A stretch of 64,000 bases of DNA from Siphonodentalium dalli (Eukaryota > Mollusca > Scaphopoda > Gadilida > Siphonodentaliidae): NCBI GenBank assembly GCA_032622095.1, contig CP136062.1:131023282-131087281 (forward strand), in the 5' to 3' direction. Numbering within the stretch: position 1 is the stretch's first letter; each line of letters begins with the position of its first letter. Below, piece after piece: positions 12,097-60,604 of this stretch. A model generated the notes under the pieces. The model had not been told where the DNA came from, did not search any database, and worked only from the letters and a program-made list of their open reading frames with translations. The translations under genes and the position numbers were made by a program.

Positions 12097-13440
12097 AGCT
12101 CAATTTTACTTTGATTTGTCAACAATTTCATTTAGCACTGGCTGCAGGTCGTACCTTTGGTTGGATCATTATGAAATTTGTCATGGACATTGATATGTAG
12201 ATGGGAACGAGTCATTTTGGGGTCATTCGGCAAAAAAACATGGCTGCCGATGGCCATCTTGGATTTCAAAATTCAATCCATTAGCACGGGCTACAGGCCA
12301 GAGTGTTTGTCTGATCATCGTGAAATTTGTTGTGGAAGTTAATTCGGCTGAAAAACATGGCCGCCAGCAGCCATCTTGGATTTTACTCTTTGCATGACTA
12401 AATCTGTTGGCACAGGCTACAAGTCGTACCTTTGGTTGGATCATTATGAAATTTGTCATGGCTGTTCACAGTGGCCATCATGGATTTAAAAATTCAATCC
12501 ATTAGCACAGACTACAGTCCAGATTGTTCGTCTGATCATGATGAAATTTGTTTTGTAAGTTAATATTGACATGTAGATGGGAACGAATCATTTTGGGGTC
12601 AATCGGCCATAAAACATGGCCACCAGTAGCCATCTTGGATTTTACTCTTTGTATGACTAAATCCTTTGACACAGGCTACAGGTCGTATCTTTGGTCGGAT
12701 CATCATGAAATTTGTCATGGATGTTAACATTGACATGTAAATGGGAATGAGTCATTATGGGCTCATTCGGCAAAAAAAACATGGCTGCCAGTGGCCATCT
12801 TGGATTTCAAAATTCAATCCATTAGCATGGGCTACATGCCGTACTGTTTGTCTGATCATCATGAAATTTGTCAGGTATGTTAATATTGACATGCAGATGG
12901 GAACGAGTCATTTTGGGGTCATTCGGCCAAAAAACATGGCCACCAGCAGCCATCTTGAATTTTACTCTTTGCATGACCAAATCCTTTGGCACGGGCTACA
13001 GGTCGTACTTTTGGTCGGATCATCATGAAATTTGTCATGAATGTCAATATTGACATGTAGATGGGAATGAGTCATTTTGGGGTCATTCGGCCATAAAAAA
13101 TGGCCACCAGCAGCCATCTTGGATTTTACTCTTTGCATGACTAAACCTTAGGCACACCCGACAGTCCACTTCCCTCATCCGATCATCACCAAACTTCATA
13201 ATAATCTTGATATTGATCTACTAGATGGAAGCTATCAAATGTTTTTGAATTTCATTGGAAAATATAGCCATCGGCAACCATCTTGGATTTTACTCTATAT
13301 ATCTGTTCATGTTGATAATCTAGTATTACTTAGACCTTTCAACTTTCCGCATTCCTAATCGCTCCATTGACTGTAACACATGAAATTGTTACCTTTCCAT
13401 GTTGAGCTACAGTGTCATTGACACTTTCATTTAGATTCTA
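12097..13440 (+). repeat. Tandem ~165-bp-unit family (CCATCTTGGATTT), plus-strand copy
   Basis: Repeats the module: (A/G)GGCTACAGGTCGTAC, TCATCATGAAATTTGTCATG, ATTGACATGTAGATGGGAA, GAGTCATTTTGGGGTCATTCGG, AACATGGC(C/T)GCCAG, CCATCTTGGATTT. Seven or more units lie before 13300, then a terminal segment ends GAGCTACAGTGTCATTGACA. That terminal segment occurs inverted at 51427 and 59541, so the family has a defined end. A hairpin-forming opposite end is visible in the inverted copies. Non-coding. Confidence 0.8.
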
Positions 13441-42620: not shown

Positions 42621-44518
42621 AACTAGATAAAATGTGTTCTTATTTAACTAGATATAATGTGTTCTTATTTAACTAGATAAAATGTGTTCTTATTTAACGA
42701 GATATAATGTGTTCTTATTTAACGAGATATAATGTGTTCTTATTTAACTAGATAAAATGTGTTCTTATTTAACTAGATAGAATGTGTTCTTATTTAACTA
42801 GATATAATGTGTTCTTATTTAACTAGATAAAATGTGTTCTTATTTAACTAGATAAAATGTGTTCTTATTTAACTAGATAAAATGTGTTCTTATTTAACTA
42901 GATAAAATGTGTTCTTATTTAACTAGATATAATGTGTTCTTATTTAACTAGATAAAATGTGTTCTTATTTAACTAGATAGAATGTGTTCTTATTTAACTA
43001 GATAAAATGTGTTCTTATTTAACTAGATAGAATGTGTTCTTATTTAACTAGATAAAATGTGTTCTTATTTAACTAGATATAATGTGTTCTTATTTAACTA
43101 GATAAATTGTGTTCTTATTTAACTAGATATGTGTTCTTATTTAACTAGATAAAATGTGTTCTTATTTAACTAGATATAATGTGTTCTTATTTAACTAGAT
43201 AAAATGTGTTCTTATTTAACTAGATATAATGTGTTCTTATTTAACTAGATAGAATGTGTTCTTATTTAACTAGATAGAATGTGTTCTTATTTAACTAGAT
43301 AAAATGTGTTCTTATTTAACTAGATAGAATGTGTTCTTATTTAACTAGATATAATGTGTTCTTATTTAACTAGATAAAATGTGGTCTCATTTAACTAGAT
43401 ATAATGTGTTCTTATTTAACTAGATATAATGTGTTCTTATTTAACTAGATAAAATGTGTTCTTATTTAACTAGAAAACATGTGTTCTTATTTAACTAGAT
43501 AGAATGTGTTCTTATTTAACTAGATAAAATGTGTTCTTATTTAACTAGATAAAATGTGTTCTTATTTAACTAGATATAATGTGTTCTTATTTAACTAGAT
43601 AGAATGTGTTCTTATTTAACTAGATAAAATGTGTTCTTATTTAACTAGATAGAATGTGTTCTTATTTAACTAGATAAAATGTGTTCTTATTTAACTAGAT
43701 ATAATGTGTTCTTATTTAACTAGATATAATGTGTTCTTATTTAACTAGATAGAATGTGTTCTTATTTAACTAGATATAATGTGTTCTTATTTAACTAGAT
43801 ATAATGTGTTCTTATTTAACTAGACAGAATGTGTTCTTATTTAACTAGATAGAATGTGTTCTTATTTAACTAGATAGAATGTGTTCTTATTTAACTAGAT
43901 AGAATGTGTTCTTATTTAACTAGATAAAATGTGTTCTTATTTAACTAGATATACTGTGTTCTTATTTAACTAGATAGAATGTGTTCTTATTTAACTAGAT
44001 AAAATGTGTTCTTATTTAACTAGATAGAATGTGTTCTTATTTAACTAGATATAATGTGTTCTTATTTAACTAGATAGAATGTGTTCTTATTTAACTAGAT
44101 AAAATGTGTTCTTATTTAACTAGATAGAATGTGTTCTTATTTAACTAGATAAAATGTGTTCTTATTTAACTAGATAAAATGTGTTCTTATTTAACTAGAT
44201 AGAATGTGTTCTTATTTAACTAGATAGAATGTGTTCTTATTTAACTAGATAGAATGTGTTCTTATTTAACTAGATACAATGTGTTCTTATTTAACTAGAT
44301 AGAATGTGTTCTTATTTAACTAGATAGAATGTGTTCGTATTTAACTAGATAGAATGTGTTCTTATTTAACTAGATAGAATGTGTTCGTATTTAACTAGAT
44401 AGAATGTGTTCTTATTTAACTAGATAAAATGTGTTCTTATTTAACTAGATATAATGTGTTCTTATTTAACTAGATATAATGTGTTCTTATTTAACTAGAT
44501 AGAATGTGTTCTTATTTT
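42621..44518 (+). repeat. 25-bp minisatellite, 76 units
   Basis: Unit is AACTAGATANAATGT followed by GTTCTTATTT. I counted 76 consecutive units, one with a 3-base deletion (near 43121). The N position is mostly A, T or G: counts per 19-unit quarter are A 10/9/4/4, T 6/6/6/3, G 3/4/9/11, with a single C. Rare variants cluster: AACGAGAT only in units 4-5, GTTCGTATTT only in units 69 and 71. Since 25 is not a multiple of three and the unit contains TAG, it cannot encode a repeat protein. Confidence 0.97.
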
Positions 44519-45999: not shown

Positions 46000-46468
46000 C
46001 GAAGAAGTTAAAGGTACTCAACCCGATTCGATGGTCCCCATATCATCAGATCCCTATAATACAACATTTTTTGAAATGCCGTTTCAGTTATCAGAATCGA
46101 TTAATTGCCCAAAAAATAATGCTAACCACAGTCAACTATTGTATAAAATTGCCCAAAACCTGTTATTTATCAACATTTTGTTCAACGGAATTTTGCCGGT
46201 TTGAAAAATACCTGACACAAAAAAGCCACTTGATTTTAGTGTTATCCATCTTCATCGGCGATTTGGTCCGAAACGGTCTTCTCGTCGACTGTTTATTGGG
46301 CCACTTAATATTATCCGTGATGAAAAATAATTTATTTAAAAAATCGATATCTGATCACTCTGAGCTTTGATGGGTGGGTTCCTCGACTCGAATCAAATAT
46401 TTGTTTACACCCGAAGCCAAGGAAATAGTAATTTGCGAGCGTTAATTCGGATTATGCATCTTTAAAAA
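46000..46468 (+). repeat. ~450-bp dispersed repeat, copy 2
   Basis: Parallel to 38690-39130 up to GGATTATGCATCTTTAAA, where the 4.27-kb palindromic element begins. The 143-residue ORF at 45939-46370 is a translation of this repeat. Confidence 0.75.
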
Positions 46469-47474
46469 TAGTCAGGTTCGAAAATTTAAAAACGCCTCTA
46501 GAAACAAAGGTGCAGGCATTTTTCTTTCAGAAGCTTTTGAGAATTGTTTCTAAAAGTATTTTTTATGCTGATTTCAAAAACCAATGTTGGCAAGTTGACA
46601 AATTATTATTTCTGGTCAAAAATGGCAATTCAAAATGGCCGCCATCAAAACAAAGTCTAACTTTACGTTTGTTGTTATGCGTTGCTCTAAGACGTTCGAA
46701 TATTGAGTATTTCCGTACTTTCGAACGAATTGGAACAAGAAGAATTATACACAGAACATAGGTGGTAATTTAAAGTGAACATGTTTGATATTTAACCCCA
46801 TTTATGGCAAAATACTGACCAAAAACGCGAATTTGATAAATTATTACGGTCTTAAATGGCAGAAAGTGAAATATGCTGGAAACGTATTATTCAAATGGTA
46901 CAGACAGTTGTGTCTAAATGTAATTTGTAACCTGATTCCAAAAAACAATGTTGGCAACTCGACAAATAATTATTCCTGACCTAAAATGACAATTCAAAAT
47001 GGCCGCCATCAGAACAAAGTCTAGATTTTCGTTTACTGTTATATGTTGTTCTAAGACGTTTGAATATTATGCATTTCCGTACTTTCGAACGAATTGTGAC
47101 AAGAGACACTATACACAGAACATATGTGGTAATCTAAAGTGAACATGTTTGACATTTAACCCACTTTATTCCCAAAAATTACAAAAAAACGCAAAAACTT
47201 ATAAATTATTGCGGTCTTAAATGGCAGAAAGTTAATTATATCCTTCAAATGGTTTAGACAGTTGTGTCTAAATGTAATTTGTAATCTGATTCCAAAACAC
47301 AATGTTGGCAACTCGACCAATAATTATTTCTGACCTAAAATGACAATTCAAAATGGCCGATATAATAATCAGTTAAACATTCGAAAATCATCCGTAATAT
47401 TATGAAACTGGTTCATCAACACCCAATGCGAGACAATTTGCCATCATATAGCCAAAAATAGTCACATAAAAGCC

Positions 47475-48490
47475 TTATGTATTATTGCAGTCAGTTCCAC
47501 AGTTGCAGAGTGGTGTGCAGGGTGGCTCTGATTTTCTGCATGTACACCTTGCTGTTACACACCCTTTATTGCACTCACATTTGATTATTTCGAGACATGA
47601 TTTTGGAATGGGTTCTAGTGACCATCTAATCGACCATTTCGGAGATTCAGTCCGAGCCTCCGAGGGAACATCCTGAATCTTGCATTGTTGAGTTTTGCAT
47701 CGGAAACTCCATACAACTTGCATACAACATGTTCAGCACTTTCAATTGTTTCAGTGGATATTGCAATATTACCAGTGCCCTTTAAGAGTTCACAACATTC
47801 CAGGTAAATCTTCCATGCGGATCGTTTAGACACCCAATATATGAACGAAGTTGAATCACACCCCGTTAAAGCATGAAACGCAAGAATATAGTTCAGAGCG
47901 TCGCTCGGTATTTTGGGTGGCAAAATCCCTGATGGGTAAAATTTTAGGGCTTTTGGAAGTTCCAGCCATCATGAACACATCACAATCTGCAGGGAATTTG
48001 TTTTGGTAACCAAGCAATAACACTAGAACATCGACGTCCCTACTTATCACAATAACTTGTTTTAGATTTCACCCCACGTTGGTATAAAGTGAATGAAGGA
48101 TAAGTCTAGTATCAGCCTCTTCGTTATTAGAATCTAACCCTTTCAAGTCTGTTCCATCTACCGAACAATCTACTCTGCAATCTTCGGGGAACCCCCCTGC
48201 AGCGACAACAATAACACCTTCTGTTTTCGCTTTGGTAACAAGTTCTCGAGACAAGAAACTATTCAAATCGGACTTTACATATGGCCACAACAAGGGCATG
48301 ACCGTCAATGACAATACCTGCACGGAGAGATGGTGTCATTCTTGTTAGGCAGGATACTTTCTCGATCAGAGCGTCAATACGAATTGCTTTGTTTCCAGTT
48401 CTAAGTGTTTTATTTGTCTCGCATAATGCAATTGGAACAGGCATGAGTTCATGTTGTAAAACATATCGCAGTGTATTACATCGTCTTGTA
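47475..48490 (-). pseudogene. Broken gene copy 1: possible FEN/XPG-like nuclease with Cys-rich tail
   Basis: Read leftward in shifting frames: HELMPVPIALCETNKTLR and VIDGHALVVA (48290-48460), SRELVTKAKTEGVIVVAAGG, NNEEADTRLILHSL, SRDVDVLVLLLGY, YILAFHALTGCDSTSFI, AWKIYLECCELLKGTGNIA, then KGCVTARCTCRKSEPPC and CTPLCNCGTDCNN at the end. E-E-A-D-T-R, a D-V-D-V block and a G-C-D loop in this order resemble the XPG-I/H3TH part of the FEN1 family; this is inference. The Cys tail recalls CXC (tesmin-like) motifs. It lacks a ~245-bp segment that copy 2 has, and ~130 bp nearer the C-terminus. Confidence 0.65.
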
Positions 48491-48527
48491 ATTGCCCTTC
48501 ATGCCGACAGGGCAGTCAACTTGCAAA

Positions 48528-49728
48528 CACTGCCCTTGTTGTGGCTATAGATAGACCGGAAAAGATAAATACATTTGGAGATTTGGCCGATGTATTCTCA
48601 GTGTGCGTGTTGAAGAAGGGCGAAGGCTATGTCTGGATTGATGTATTGTTCGACAGATACTCGGATAAATCTATCAAGACTGCCACCAGATCGAGAAGAA
48701 GTCGCAATGTACCATTGATCCGAAGGACAATAACAAATCGTGATGTTCCCATCCCACAAAATTAAAAAAGTTTAATTTTGTTGTCTGACAACAAGTCCGA
48801 TTTGAATGGTTCCTTGTCTCGAGAACTTGTTACCAAACCGAAAAAAGAAGGTGTTACTGTTGTTGTTGCAGGGGGGTCCCCGAAGATTGCAGAGTAGATT
48901 GTTCGGTATATGGAACAGACTTGAAAGGGTTAGAGTCTAATCACGAAGAGGCTGACACCAGACTTATCCTTCATTCACTTGATACCAGCATGGGGTGCAA
49001 TCTGAAACAAGTTATTGTGGTAAGTATGGAGGTCGATGTTCTAATGGTATTGCTTGGTTACCTAGACAAAGTTCCTGCATATTGTGATGTGTTCATGATG
49101 GCTGGAACGTTCAAAAACCCTAAAATTATACCCATCAGTGGTGCTGCCACCCAAATACCGAGCGACGCTCTGAACTATATTCTTGCGTTTCATGCTTTAA
49201 CGGGGTGTGATTCAACTTCGTTCATATGGGGTGTCTAAACGATATGCATGGAAGATTTACCTGGAATGTTGTGAACTCTTAACGGGTATAGGTAATATTG
49301 CAATATTCACTGAAACAATTGAAAGTGCTGAACATTTTGTATGCAAGTTGTATGGAGTTTCAGATGCAAAACTCAACAATGCAAGATTCAGGATGTTCCC
49401 TCGGACTGAATCTCCTGAAAAACTTCCACCAACCAGTGACTCATTTCATTACCGGTACCACCTTTTGAGAACAAACTACCAGGTTTTAGTTTGGAAACAA
49501 GCAACCATTCATGTGCAAACATTACCGGATCCTTCAACAATGAGATGGAAAGAAGAAAATGGTCGATTGGATCCAACCATGTCACTAGAAACCATTCCAA
49601 AATCATGTCTCGAAATAATCAAATATGGGTTCAAGAAGGGGTGTGTAACTGCAATGTGTACATGCAGAAAATCAGAGTTACCCTGCACACCACTCTGCAA
49701 TTGTGGAACTGACTGCAATAATAAATAA
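48528..49728 (+). pseudogene. Broken gene copy 2: same protein family, opposite arm
   Basis: Begins with a segment missing from copy 1 (FGDLADVFSVCVLKKGEGY, VLFDRYSDKSIKTATR, RRTITNRDVPIPQN). It continues DLNGSLSRELVTK, HEEADTRLILHSLD, SMEVDVLMVLLGY, YILAFHALTGCDSTSF, AWKIYLECCELLTG and the Cys-rich end KGCVTAMCTCRKSELPC. A one-base loss in the G-run near 48875 and another break near 49228 disrupt the frame. The aspartate before VDV is glutamate here (SMEVDV). The N-terminal block present in copy 1 is absent. Together the two copies span more of the family than either does. Confidence 0.65.
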
Positions 49729-50735
49729 GGATTTTTTTGGACCATTTTTCGCTATAGGATGGCAAATTGTGTCGCATTGGGTAATGATGAACCTGTTTCA
49801 TAATATTACGGATGATTTTCGAATTTTAACTGATTATTATATCGGCCATTTTGAATTGTCATTTTAGGTCAGAAATAATTATTGGTCGAGTTGCCAACAT
49901 TGTTTTTATTTTGGAATCAGATTACAAATTACATTTAGACACAACTGTCTCAACCATTTGAAGGATACATTTCCGGAATACTTCACTTTCTGCCATTTAA
50001 GAGGCAATGATTTATAAAATTCGCGTTTTTTGTCATTTTTGGGCATAAATTAGGTTAAATGTCAAATATGTTCACTTTAAATTACCACATATGTTCTGTG
50101 TATAGTGTCTCTTGTCACAATTCGTTCGAAAGTACGGAAATGCATAATATTCAAACGTCTTAGAACAACATATAACAGTAAACGAAAATCTAGACTTTAT
50201 TCTGATGGCGGCCATTTTGAATTGTCATTTTAGGTCAGAAATAATTATTTGTCGAGTTGCCAACATTGTTTTCTGGAATCAGAATACAAATTACATTTAG
50301 ACACAACTGTCTCAACCATTTGAAGAATATATTTCCGGAATACTTCACTTTCTGCCATTTAAGAGGCAATAATTTATAAAATTCGCGTTTTTTGTCATTT
50401 TTGGGCATAAATTAGGTTAAATGTCAAACATGTTCACTTTAAATTACCACATATGTTCTGTATTTAGTGTCTCTTGTCACAATTCGTTCGATATTACGGA
50501 AATGCATAATATTCAAACGTCTTAGAACAACATATAATAGTAAACGAAAATCTAGACTTTGTTCTGATGGCGGCCATTTTGAATTGTCATTTTGGGTCAG
50601 AAATAATAATTTGTCGACTTGCCAACATTGGTTTTTGCAATCAGCATAAAAAAATACCTTTAGAAACAATTCTCAAAAGCTTCTGAAAGAAAAATGCCCG
50701 CACCTTTCACATTTATTCCATTTCGAACCTGACTA

Positions 50736-51083
50736 AAAGGTAAGAACGTGCATGGGAGTGTTCCCGATATGCAATATAGTCCACACGTGCACATGGGTGC
50801 AAGTCAACTATCGTGGATACAACTTAGCCCTTGATCGTCTCAATAACAAAGTATGCATGGTCCTCTCGATCATAGCCACGAAATATGCCAATTGCGCTCA
50901 CAAACGTCATTATTTGTCGCATGCATGCAGGAGGGCTTCACCCCCTACCCCCATGCATTCTGAATACCAGTTAATAGGCTGGGGTGAATTATGCATACTG
51001 GTTAAGAAAATATAGAATACAAATCATGGTTATTTCATCCCAATATGATACTTTTCACACATTTGCTGAAATAATGCACATTA
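50736..51083. other. No gene recognised; small partial palindrome
   Basis: CCCATGCATTCTGAATACCAGTTAATAGGC resembles TGAATTATGCATACTGGTTAAG and later CTGAATACCGGTCA, GAATACCAGTTA at 51308-51355, so short diverged repeats flank the MITE. Confidence 0.4.
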
Positions 51084-51426: not shown

Positions 51427-52268
51427 ATAAATGAAAGTGTCAATGACACTGTAGCTCAACTTGGAAAGGGAATAATTTAATGTATTACAGTCAATGGAGC
51501 GATTAGGAATGTGGAAAGTTGAAAGTCTAATACTAGTTTATAGACATGAAGAGAAAAGTAAAATCCAAGATGGCTGCTGGTGGCCATTTTTTCGGCCGAA
51601 TGATCCCAAAATGAGTCGTTCCCATCTACATGTCATCGTTAACATCCATGACAAATTTTATGACGATCAGACTAAAGGTACGACCTGTTGCCCATGCTAA
51701 AGAATTTAGTCATACAAAGAGTAAAATCCAAGATGGCTGCTGGCGGCCATGTTTTTCGACCGAATGACCCTAAAATGACTCGTTCCCATCTACATGTCAT
51801 TATTAACATTCTTGACAAATTTTATGATGATCAGACTAAAAGTACGACCTGTAGCCCGTGCTAAAGAATTTAGTCATACAAAGAGTAAAATCCAAGATGG
51901 CTGCTGGCGGCCATGTTTTTGGGCCGAATGACCCCAAAATTACTCGTTCCCATCTACATGTCAATATTAACATCCATGACAAATTTCATGATGATCAGAA
52001 TAACAGTACGACCTGTAGCCCGTGCTAATGGATTGAATTTTGAAATCCAAGATGGCCGCTGGCGGCCATGTTTTTTTTACGAATGACCCCAAAATTAATC
52101 ATTCTGGTCTAAATGTTGATGTCAACATCTATGACAAATTTCATAATGATCCGACCAAAGGTACGACATGTAGCCTGCATTGTTGACGCCTTACGTACAC
52201 ACGCACACACGGACGACGGACGACAAAGCCATGGCAATAGCTCAAACTTTACAAAGTAAAGTTGAGCT
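51427..52268 (-). repeat. ~165-bp-unit family, inverted copy 1
   Basis: Read on the minus strand: terminal hairpin AGCTCAACTTTAC / GTAAAGTTTGAGCT (52238-52268), GTCGTCCGTC, then four units with CCATCTTGGAT(T/G)T at about 165-bp spacing. It ends with the segment ACAGTGTCATTGACACTTTC. Same element as 12097-13440. Confidence 0.8.
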
Positions 52269-59540: not shown

Positions 59541-60604
59541 AAATGAAAGTGTCAAAGACACTGTAGTTCAACTTGGGAAGGAGTTAATATTTTGCCGAGC
59601 AATGAATAGAATGATAAAGAAGAAGGAAAGTAAAGTAGAGGTCACCTCGAAAATCCATATGACGTTTGGTGATGATCGGATGGGGGATATGGTCTGTATG
59701 GTGCGCCAAAGGATTTAGTCAAACAAAGAGTAAATTCCAAGATGGACGCTGGCGGCCATGTTTTTCAACAAATTTCGGTCAAAATAGGAGGCTCCCATCT
59801 AGAGGTCATCCCGAATATCCAATGAAGTGGTCATCAGATGAGGTCTGTGGGCTGTGAACAAGGATTTAGTCATGCAAAGAGGAAAATCCAAGATGGCTGC
59901 CCGCGGCCATGTTTTTCGTCGAAAACTGTTAAAATTTGATAGCTCCCGTCTAGAGGTCATTCTAAACATGCCTGTAAATTTTCAAATTAATTATCCAATA
60001 AATGCGGGCTGCGGGGTGTGCTGATAGATTCAAATTTGAAATCCAAGATGGCTGCTGGCGGACATGGTTTTTAACAAATTTCGGTCAAAATAGGAGGCTC
60101 CCATCTAGAGGTGATCCGTATCCATCTAGAGAAGATCCGTATGATGTTTGGTGAAGTCGGTGAGAGATGTGGCATGTATAGGGTGTGCGGAAGGATTTAG
60201 TCATACAACGAGTAAATTAAAAGATGGCTGCTGGCGGCCATATTTTTAAACAAACTTCGATCAAATATGAGACTCCCATCTAGAGGTCACCTTGAAGATC
60301 TAAATGATGTTTGGTGATGTTCGGATGAGGAGTGTGGTCTGCAGGGTGTGCCGACGGATTTAGTCATGCAAAGATTAAAATCCAATATGGCTGCCGGCGG
60401 CCATGATTTTCATCAAAAATCGTTCAAATTCGACAGCTCCCATCTATAGGTCACCCAAGAGCTACATATGGATTTTGGTGAAGATTGGATAAGGGATGCG
60501 ACCTGTAGAGCGTGGCGAAGGAAATTGTTGACGCACGCACGCACACACGGACGACGGACGCCAACCCATGGCAATAGCTCAAACTTTACGTTGTAAAGTT
60601 GAGG
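59541..60604 (-). repeat. ~165-bp-unit family, inverted copy 2
   Basis: Begins (plus sense) AAATGAAAGTGTCAAAGACA and ends with hairpin AGCTCAAACTTTACGTTGTA then AAGTTGAGG at 60571-60604. Between these are five or more diverged units with TCCAAGATGG(C/A)(T/C)GC and GGCGGCCATG. It is longer and more diverged than 51427-52268. Confidence 0.8.

Follow-up and report, generated by a model that had tools for sequence, protein, structure and literature searches.

Within the 64,000-nt stretch of the Siphonodentalium dalli genome analyzed here (assembly GCA_032622095.1, contig CP136062.1, positions 131,023,282 to 131,087,281; hereafter, the window), positions 46469–50735 hold a palindromic, non-autonomous element of 4267 bp that belongs to a large family and was probably derived from an AcademX-type DNA transposon. 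The assembly comprises 2.23 Gb in nine contigs (designated C1 and so on), and the window lies on C2. The element was delimited by its inverted ends, the alignment of its two arms, and its target-site duplication (TSD), the 3-bp sequence AAA at 46466–46468 and again at 50736–50738. Its ends, TAGTCAGGTTCGAAA at 46469 and TTTCGAACCTGACTA at 50735, form an exact 15-nt inverted match (L tip, 46469–46483, forward strand; R tip, 50721–50735, reverse strand). When the tips were aligned, they differed beyond this 15-mer, each continuing into a block with no homology to the other end (L-specific, ~22 nt, 46484–46505, forward strand; R-specific, ~13 nt, 50708–50720, reverse strand), after which the homologous arms begin. 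The inverted arms are 86% identical across 1996 aligned columns, 275 of them gapped, which is far above chance. A subterminal array lies in each arm, with about 2.3 units of ~362 bp on the left (46526–47377, forward strand) and 2.3 units of 362 bp on the right (49843–50676, reverse strand); the tandem-repeat program reported the right array only, and the boundaries of the left one were set by other means. A preliminary description, made from the sequence of the window, had noted the exact 15-bp ends and the near-continuous inverted arms, both of which are borne out here, but the three ~370-bp units that it counted per arm are instead about 2.3 copies of a 362–364-bp unit.

Each arm also contains one broken piece of the same gene, with the stops facing outward (47475–47477 on the reverse strand and 49726–49728 on the forward strand), as had been proposed. 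The left piece (47475–48460, reverse strand) has the block order A-C-D-E and lacks block B, and the right piece (48532–49728, forward strand) has the order B-C-D-E and lacks block A; both are frameshifted and contain in-frame stops. In the block maps, block B (VLFDRYSDKSIK) occupies 48590–48760 on the forward strand in the right arm and is missing from the left arm, and block A (HELMPVPIALCETNK), which is single copy and absent from the right arm, occupies 48301–48460 on the reverse strand. This reciprocal absence had also been pointed out previously, and we found it to be common to other copies of the element.

The exact 15-mer occurs 309 times genome-wide, compared with 2 occurrences of a reversed control. 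At ≤2 mismatches, there are 183 L-type and 198 R-type tips in the genome, and 0 in the controls. Copies fetched from the genome (element loci, given L-numbered names below) share the 15-mer at their tips, some with 1–2 mismatches, and then split into the L and R kinds, and a genome search with the left arm yielded 135 matching pieces from the 40 scored of 386 candidates. Tip pairing was evaluated with the exact-match tips that lie on C1 through part of C6, which covers 80 L and 99 R sites, 100 of each kind having been listed. Within 12 kb, 42 neighboring pairs faced each other (median length 4.06 kb); 41 of them were L-R, one was R-R, and none was L-L, and only ~0.25 neighbors of any kind would be expected by chance; in the lone R-R pair, an L tip sits 152 bp outside. 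The palindrome is ancestral to a large family and is not an event at the window locus alone; the earlier proposal of an inverted duplication of the element's 3′ half stands, but not as an event in this copy. The suggested link between the gene and the terminal repeats was likewise confirmed. A 10.3-kb tip pair on C1, considered as an autonomous candidate, was rejected, since it proved to be this palindrome, lengthened by an insertion. We also observed three like-oriented R-type tips spaced ~1.03 kb apart (C4:220074174, 220075199, and 220076229), which perhaps represent a head-to-tail array of one end.

The TSDs were tested in 41 stretches, 19 of which had both tips at ≤2 mismatches. An exact 3-bp TSD was present in 13 of these 19 two-tip copies, compared with a mean of 1.4 and a maximum of 7 in 5000 shuffles, and duplications of 2, 4, or 5 bp did not exceed chance. 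Two of the 13, L029 and L030, are one duplicated copy with flanks shared in opposite orientation, and the pairs L026/L033, L027/L031, and L041/L047 have a common 12 nt beside one tip. L029 (C8:84.73 Mb) and L030 (C8:85.88 Mb) are inverted and ~1.15 Mb apart, either because the segment was duplicated in inverted form or through an effect of the assembly.

Block maps of 40 loci, including the window copy, showed one block A and one block B on opposite arms in 23 loci, as in the window, and block B in both arms in three (L018, L024, and L046). Block A was readable in 26 loci and was absent from the other 14, which are truncated or too short. None of the 26 loci with block A carries it twice, so we interpret it as what was the loop when the hairpin first formed. 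In L018, which is basal for both arms in the tree described below, 182 bp lie between the arm ends. The lack of block B in the L arm is read as a later deletion that was inherited by the main wave of copies. The preliminary description had held that the two arms of the window copy eroded separately; this does not agree with the block maps, in which block A is single in 26/26 loci and block B is one-armed in 23/26. In L009, the B-bearing arm lies under the L tip, which means that the interior has the reverse orientation with respect to the tips; in L024, it is block A that is turned around. Both flips are as would be expected of recombination between inverted arms. An interior flip was also considered for L020, L025, L041, L046, and L047 but was rejected, since the readable loci among them (L020, L025, and L046) keep block B in the L-tip arm. 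This arrangement is taken as the older state, leaving L009 and L024 as the sole flips. L020 and L025 were also tried and rejected as non-palindromic progenitors, because other sequence begins soon after block B; in L020, a broken copy, a minisatellite-like array adjoins block B downstream.

A midpoint-rooted FastTree phylogeny was constructed from 57 gene pieces, 27 of which were labeled L and 20 R by their tips, with 10 unlabeled. On their own side of the tree fell 20 of the 27 L-labeled and 19 of the 20 R-labeled pieces (39/47 of those labeled), and the branching inside the L and R sides matches. The distance matrices of the L and R arms correlate at r = 0.73 (p = 1e-4) over 21 of the 23 two-armed loci, with L009 and L024 left out as rearranged, and at r = 0.69 (p = 1e-4) over 18 loci when the duplicates L030, L031, and L033 are removed. 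Taken together, the pairing of L with R tips, the separate arm groups, and the correlated arm histories indicate that a single formation of the palindrome, followed by its copying as a unit, is most likely. The mean difference between gene arms is 5.4% for L-L, 5.4% for R-R, and 7.3% for L-R within an element. Between the consensus sequences of the two arms (from 16 L sequences and 14 R sequences), just 12 of the 616 sites are different, suggesting that the arms were nearly identical at the start of the spread, and this near-identity favors self-inversion of one element over the joining of two old ones.

With respect to the gene, a transposase-like domain search with a motif query (150 scored of 1460 candidates) yielded open frames of up to 1532 amino acids (aa), and one match was completed to a 1286-aa open reading frame (ORF) in the same genome. 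Its C-terminal part shared 30% identity over 275 aa with the L030 gene piece (E = 4.6e-29) and 27% over 282 aa with that of L022 (E = 1.8e-21). An hhalign comparison of the palindrome gene with this ORF gave a probability of 99, the match reaching the cysteine-rich tail, and blocks A and B of L046 matched the 1286-aa protein in order (tblastn E = 2e-6 when taken by themselves, 8e-5 within the full set of fetched loci). Since the homology lies in the C-terminal part of the ORF, the palindrome gene is, as judged by sequence homology, the C-terminal half of a putative transposase-like plus nuclease-like protein. The gene, for which the preliminary description had recognized no named superfamily, can be placed provisionally as AcademX-like; that description was incomplete in this respect. 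Genome-wide, 1460 transposase-like and 2622 nuclease-like candidates were counted, with 13 open frames of >1000 aa among the 150 scored in each set, and the best score is common to eight transposase-like matches, suggesting that the lineage was active recently.

The nuclease of AcademX elements is of the XPG type. A profile check of the gene against FEN1/XPG, which had been proposed as a follow-up, scored at best 27.8, in a stretch resembling a helix-hairpin-helix (100 shuffles gave no more than 23.4), but the HHsuite probability was only 6. The motifs compared here with FEN1 are VFDG/VFDR, SxDxD, and GCDS. The link between the gene and FEN1/XPG is suggestive only, and the nuclease fold is putative: two other FEN1 comparisons were weak (probabilities of 1.3 and 8.2), searches of Pfam, NCBIfam, PHROGs, and PDB sequences with the gene gave no accepted match, and the fold prediction for a 121-aa piece from the window was unusable (predicted local distance difference test score of 36). 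For the cysteine tail, the Tesmin/TSO1 CXC domain matched below threshold (E = 0.083), and no relatives were found by tblastn in viral contigs, prokaryote genomes, or phages.

Most gene pieces are broken and some long frames are open, the longest being 406 aa in L028, the first part of which is block A read antisense. The differences at codon positions 1, 2, and 3 are 6.3, 5.6, and 5.1% for L-L and 4.7, 6.8, and 5.0% for R-R, and singletons number 48/44/40 in the L arms and 38/47/48 in the R arms, with no third-position excess. As substitutions lack this excess, the gene looks like a passenger, and we infer that the gene pieces are carried by an element moved in trans by a protein from elsewhere. 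Selection on the gene before the spread is possible, since half of the 12 differences between the L and R consensus sequences fall at third positions.

These observations are best accounted for by a non-autonomous DNA transposon that arose from an AcademX-type transposase-plus-nuclease element by inversion of its 3′ half and spread as a palindrome, a reading to which we assign a probability of roughly 0.8. The data support a single inverted duplication of the 3′ half, comprising the subterminal repeats and the C-terminal part of the gene, which produced a palindrome with a single-copy loop of ~180 bp; one arm subsequently lost block B, and the palindrome then spread as a unit, leaving 3-bp TSDs. 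Repair following excision may have given rise to the duplication, if a nascent or broken strand folded back on itself and its 3′ half was copied; such foldback copying would have left the original 5′ tip, with both its 15-nt repeat and its specific block, where it was. An intact transposase from the same lineage as the element would then recognize the tips in trans and move the element by cut and paste, and recombination between the arms could turn over the interior, as appears to be the case in L009, or the loop, as in L024.

A number of findings weigh against this account. In the family data, an exact facing neighbor is missing for 95 of the 179 exact tips used, their partners being mutated, lost, or absent and solo or decayed ends common; five further neighboring tip pairs, no more than 12 kb apart, are not in facing orientation; and six of the 19 two-tip copies (L011, L013, L018, L019, L023, and L028) have no exact 3-bp TSD. 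The genome-wide search with the ends, which had been suggested previously, did recover a large family and its TSDs, but a non-palindromic progenitor, that is, an L tip on other sequence, was not detected at ≤3 mismatches (176 L blocks and 176 arm-joined L blocks, the two totals being compared as numbers and not site by site). Nor was an autonomous element with these tips found when the 150 scored of the 1460 transposase hits were compared with 159 tips, the closest transposase match being 69 kb from a tip. What was read of the 1286-aa relative is its ORF, and an initial match of L028 to this ORF, in its then incomplete form, was not significant (E = 0.48). In the tree, seven L-tip pieces (L009, L020, L024, L025, L041, L046, and L047) and one R-tip piece (L009) are exceptions, with both pieces of L009 swapped between the sides and the other six branching close to the base of the R side; local support is only 0.75 and 0.80 for the two sides, whose stems are short, and the rooting is by midpoint. 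Lastly, six of the 12 differences between the L and R consensus sequences are at third codon positions.

Alternatively, two separate elements may have come to lie head to head and lost their 5′ halves by deletion, the composite then moving as one. The different blocks that follow the 15-mer at the two tips and the unequal inner ends of the arms are consistent with such an origin, but two old elements would have brought older differences with them, and the consensus gene arms, L versus R, show just 12 differences in 616 sites. This argument covers two old elements and not two very young, identical insertions, and a head-to-head origin is unlikely overall. Palindromes are also a known failure of genome assembly, and a foldback read error at the window locus might in principle have generated the element. 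The preliminary description had already argued against such an artefact, rightly in our view, since the window arms are ~14% divergent and the two-tip structure recurs at dozens of loci, many with their own TSDs, on eight of the nine contigs (the two-tip copies examined come from all contigs except C7). The artefact is thus refuted for the family as a whole, and its probability at the window locus is negligible.

The palindrome might instead persist as an active hairpin silencer, a mobile analog of the Mu killer locus of maize, whose read-through transcripts would form long double-stranded RNA and give rise to small RNAs against autonomous relatives. The layout resembles that of Mu killer, a MuDR derivative in which, as described, part of a transposase gene is duplicated in inverted orientation and one terminal region is present twice (PMC3440606). 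Against this, the gene-part arms of present copies differ by 5–10%, and the one intact relative that was read, at ~30% protein identity, is too distant for RNA pairing, making active silencing very improbable. A related proposal is that the palindrome parasitizes an Academ-like transposon for its movement while a hairpin transcript, with the gene and terminal region of the parent in both sense and antisense copies, feeds small-RNA silencing of the parent. We regard this as a long shot; if it were true, the spread of a palindromic silencer would help to explain the absence of a matching autonomous copy near the tips compared.

Returning to the palindromic AcademX-like transposon, its relationship to known systems can be considered. 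AcademX elements are reported to generate 3–4 bp target duplications and to encode a nuclease (PMC10045372). The present element shares with them a 3-bp TSD and possibly a nuclease-bearing protein, but differs in lacking the transposase part. The 3-bp TSD found in 13 of 19 copies fits the AcademX lineage, and the element is filed as AcademX-like on the basis of its TSD length and putative gene homology. The closest published precedent is Galileo, a P-superfamily element of Drosophila with a foldback-like extension of its terminal repeats (PMC4168063), so that this kind of change is already known. In Galileo, the inverted repeats reach the end of the transposase ORF, and here, similarly, each arm consists of a subterminal array plus a C-terminal gene piece. 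The two differ in that Galileo has a 7-bp target duplication as opposed to 3 bp; in the gene involved, which here matches the 1286-aa protein and has no accepted match in Pfam; and in the extent of the inversion, which here is so complete that only the ~180-bp loop is single copy. Mu killer has a comparable layout but is described as a silencing locus (PMC3440606), whereas the present element belongs to a mobile family, for which 183 L and 198 R tips were counted. Muta1, a type 2 foldback element of Aedes, likewise has complex long terminal repeats of subterminal tandem units and many non-autonomous derivatives; it is a Mutator-like element with 8–9-bp target duplications and 12-bp units, and duplicated gene halves are not described in the portions of that account covered here (PMC5225508). 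No description of a palindromic Academ-like family was found among the titles and abstract openings listed from open-licence papers. As far as searched, the lineage, the completeness of the inversion, and the amplification as a palindrome are new within that literature.

Elsewhere in the window, a 25-bp minisatellite at 42621–44517 comprises 76 copies that are 95% matched and coincides with a dip in GC content to 25%. Arrays of a ~163–164-bp unit at 12469–13228, 51557–52175, and 60141–60455 are partly similar to one another in sequence and apparently belong to another dispersed repeat family.

The family makes the extension of inverted repeats visible at several stages in one genome, with block B in both arms, block B in one arm, and the interior flipped, and its tips, loop, and arm divergence are all readable in a lineage that we judge to be little studied. 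An almost complete palindrome has evidently been no bar to heavy amplification. Furthermore, the family offers a ready test of whether mobile hairpins may feed small-RNA silencing.

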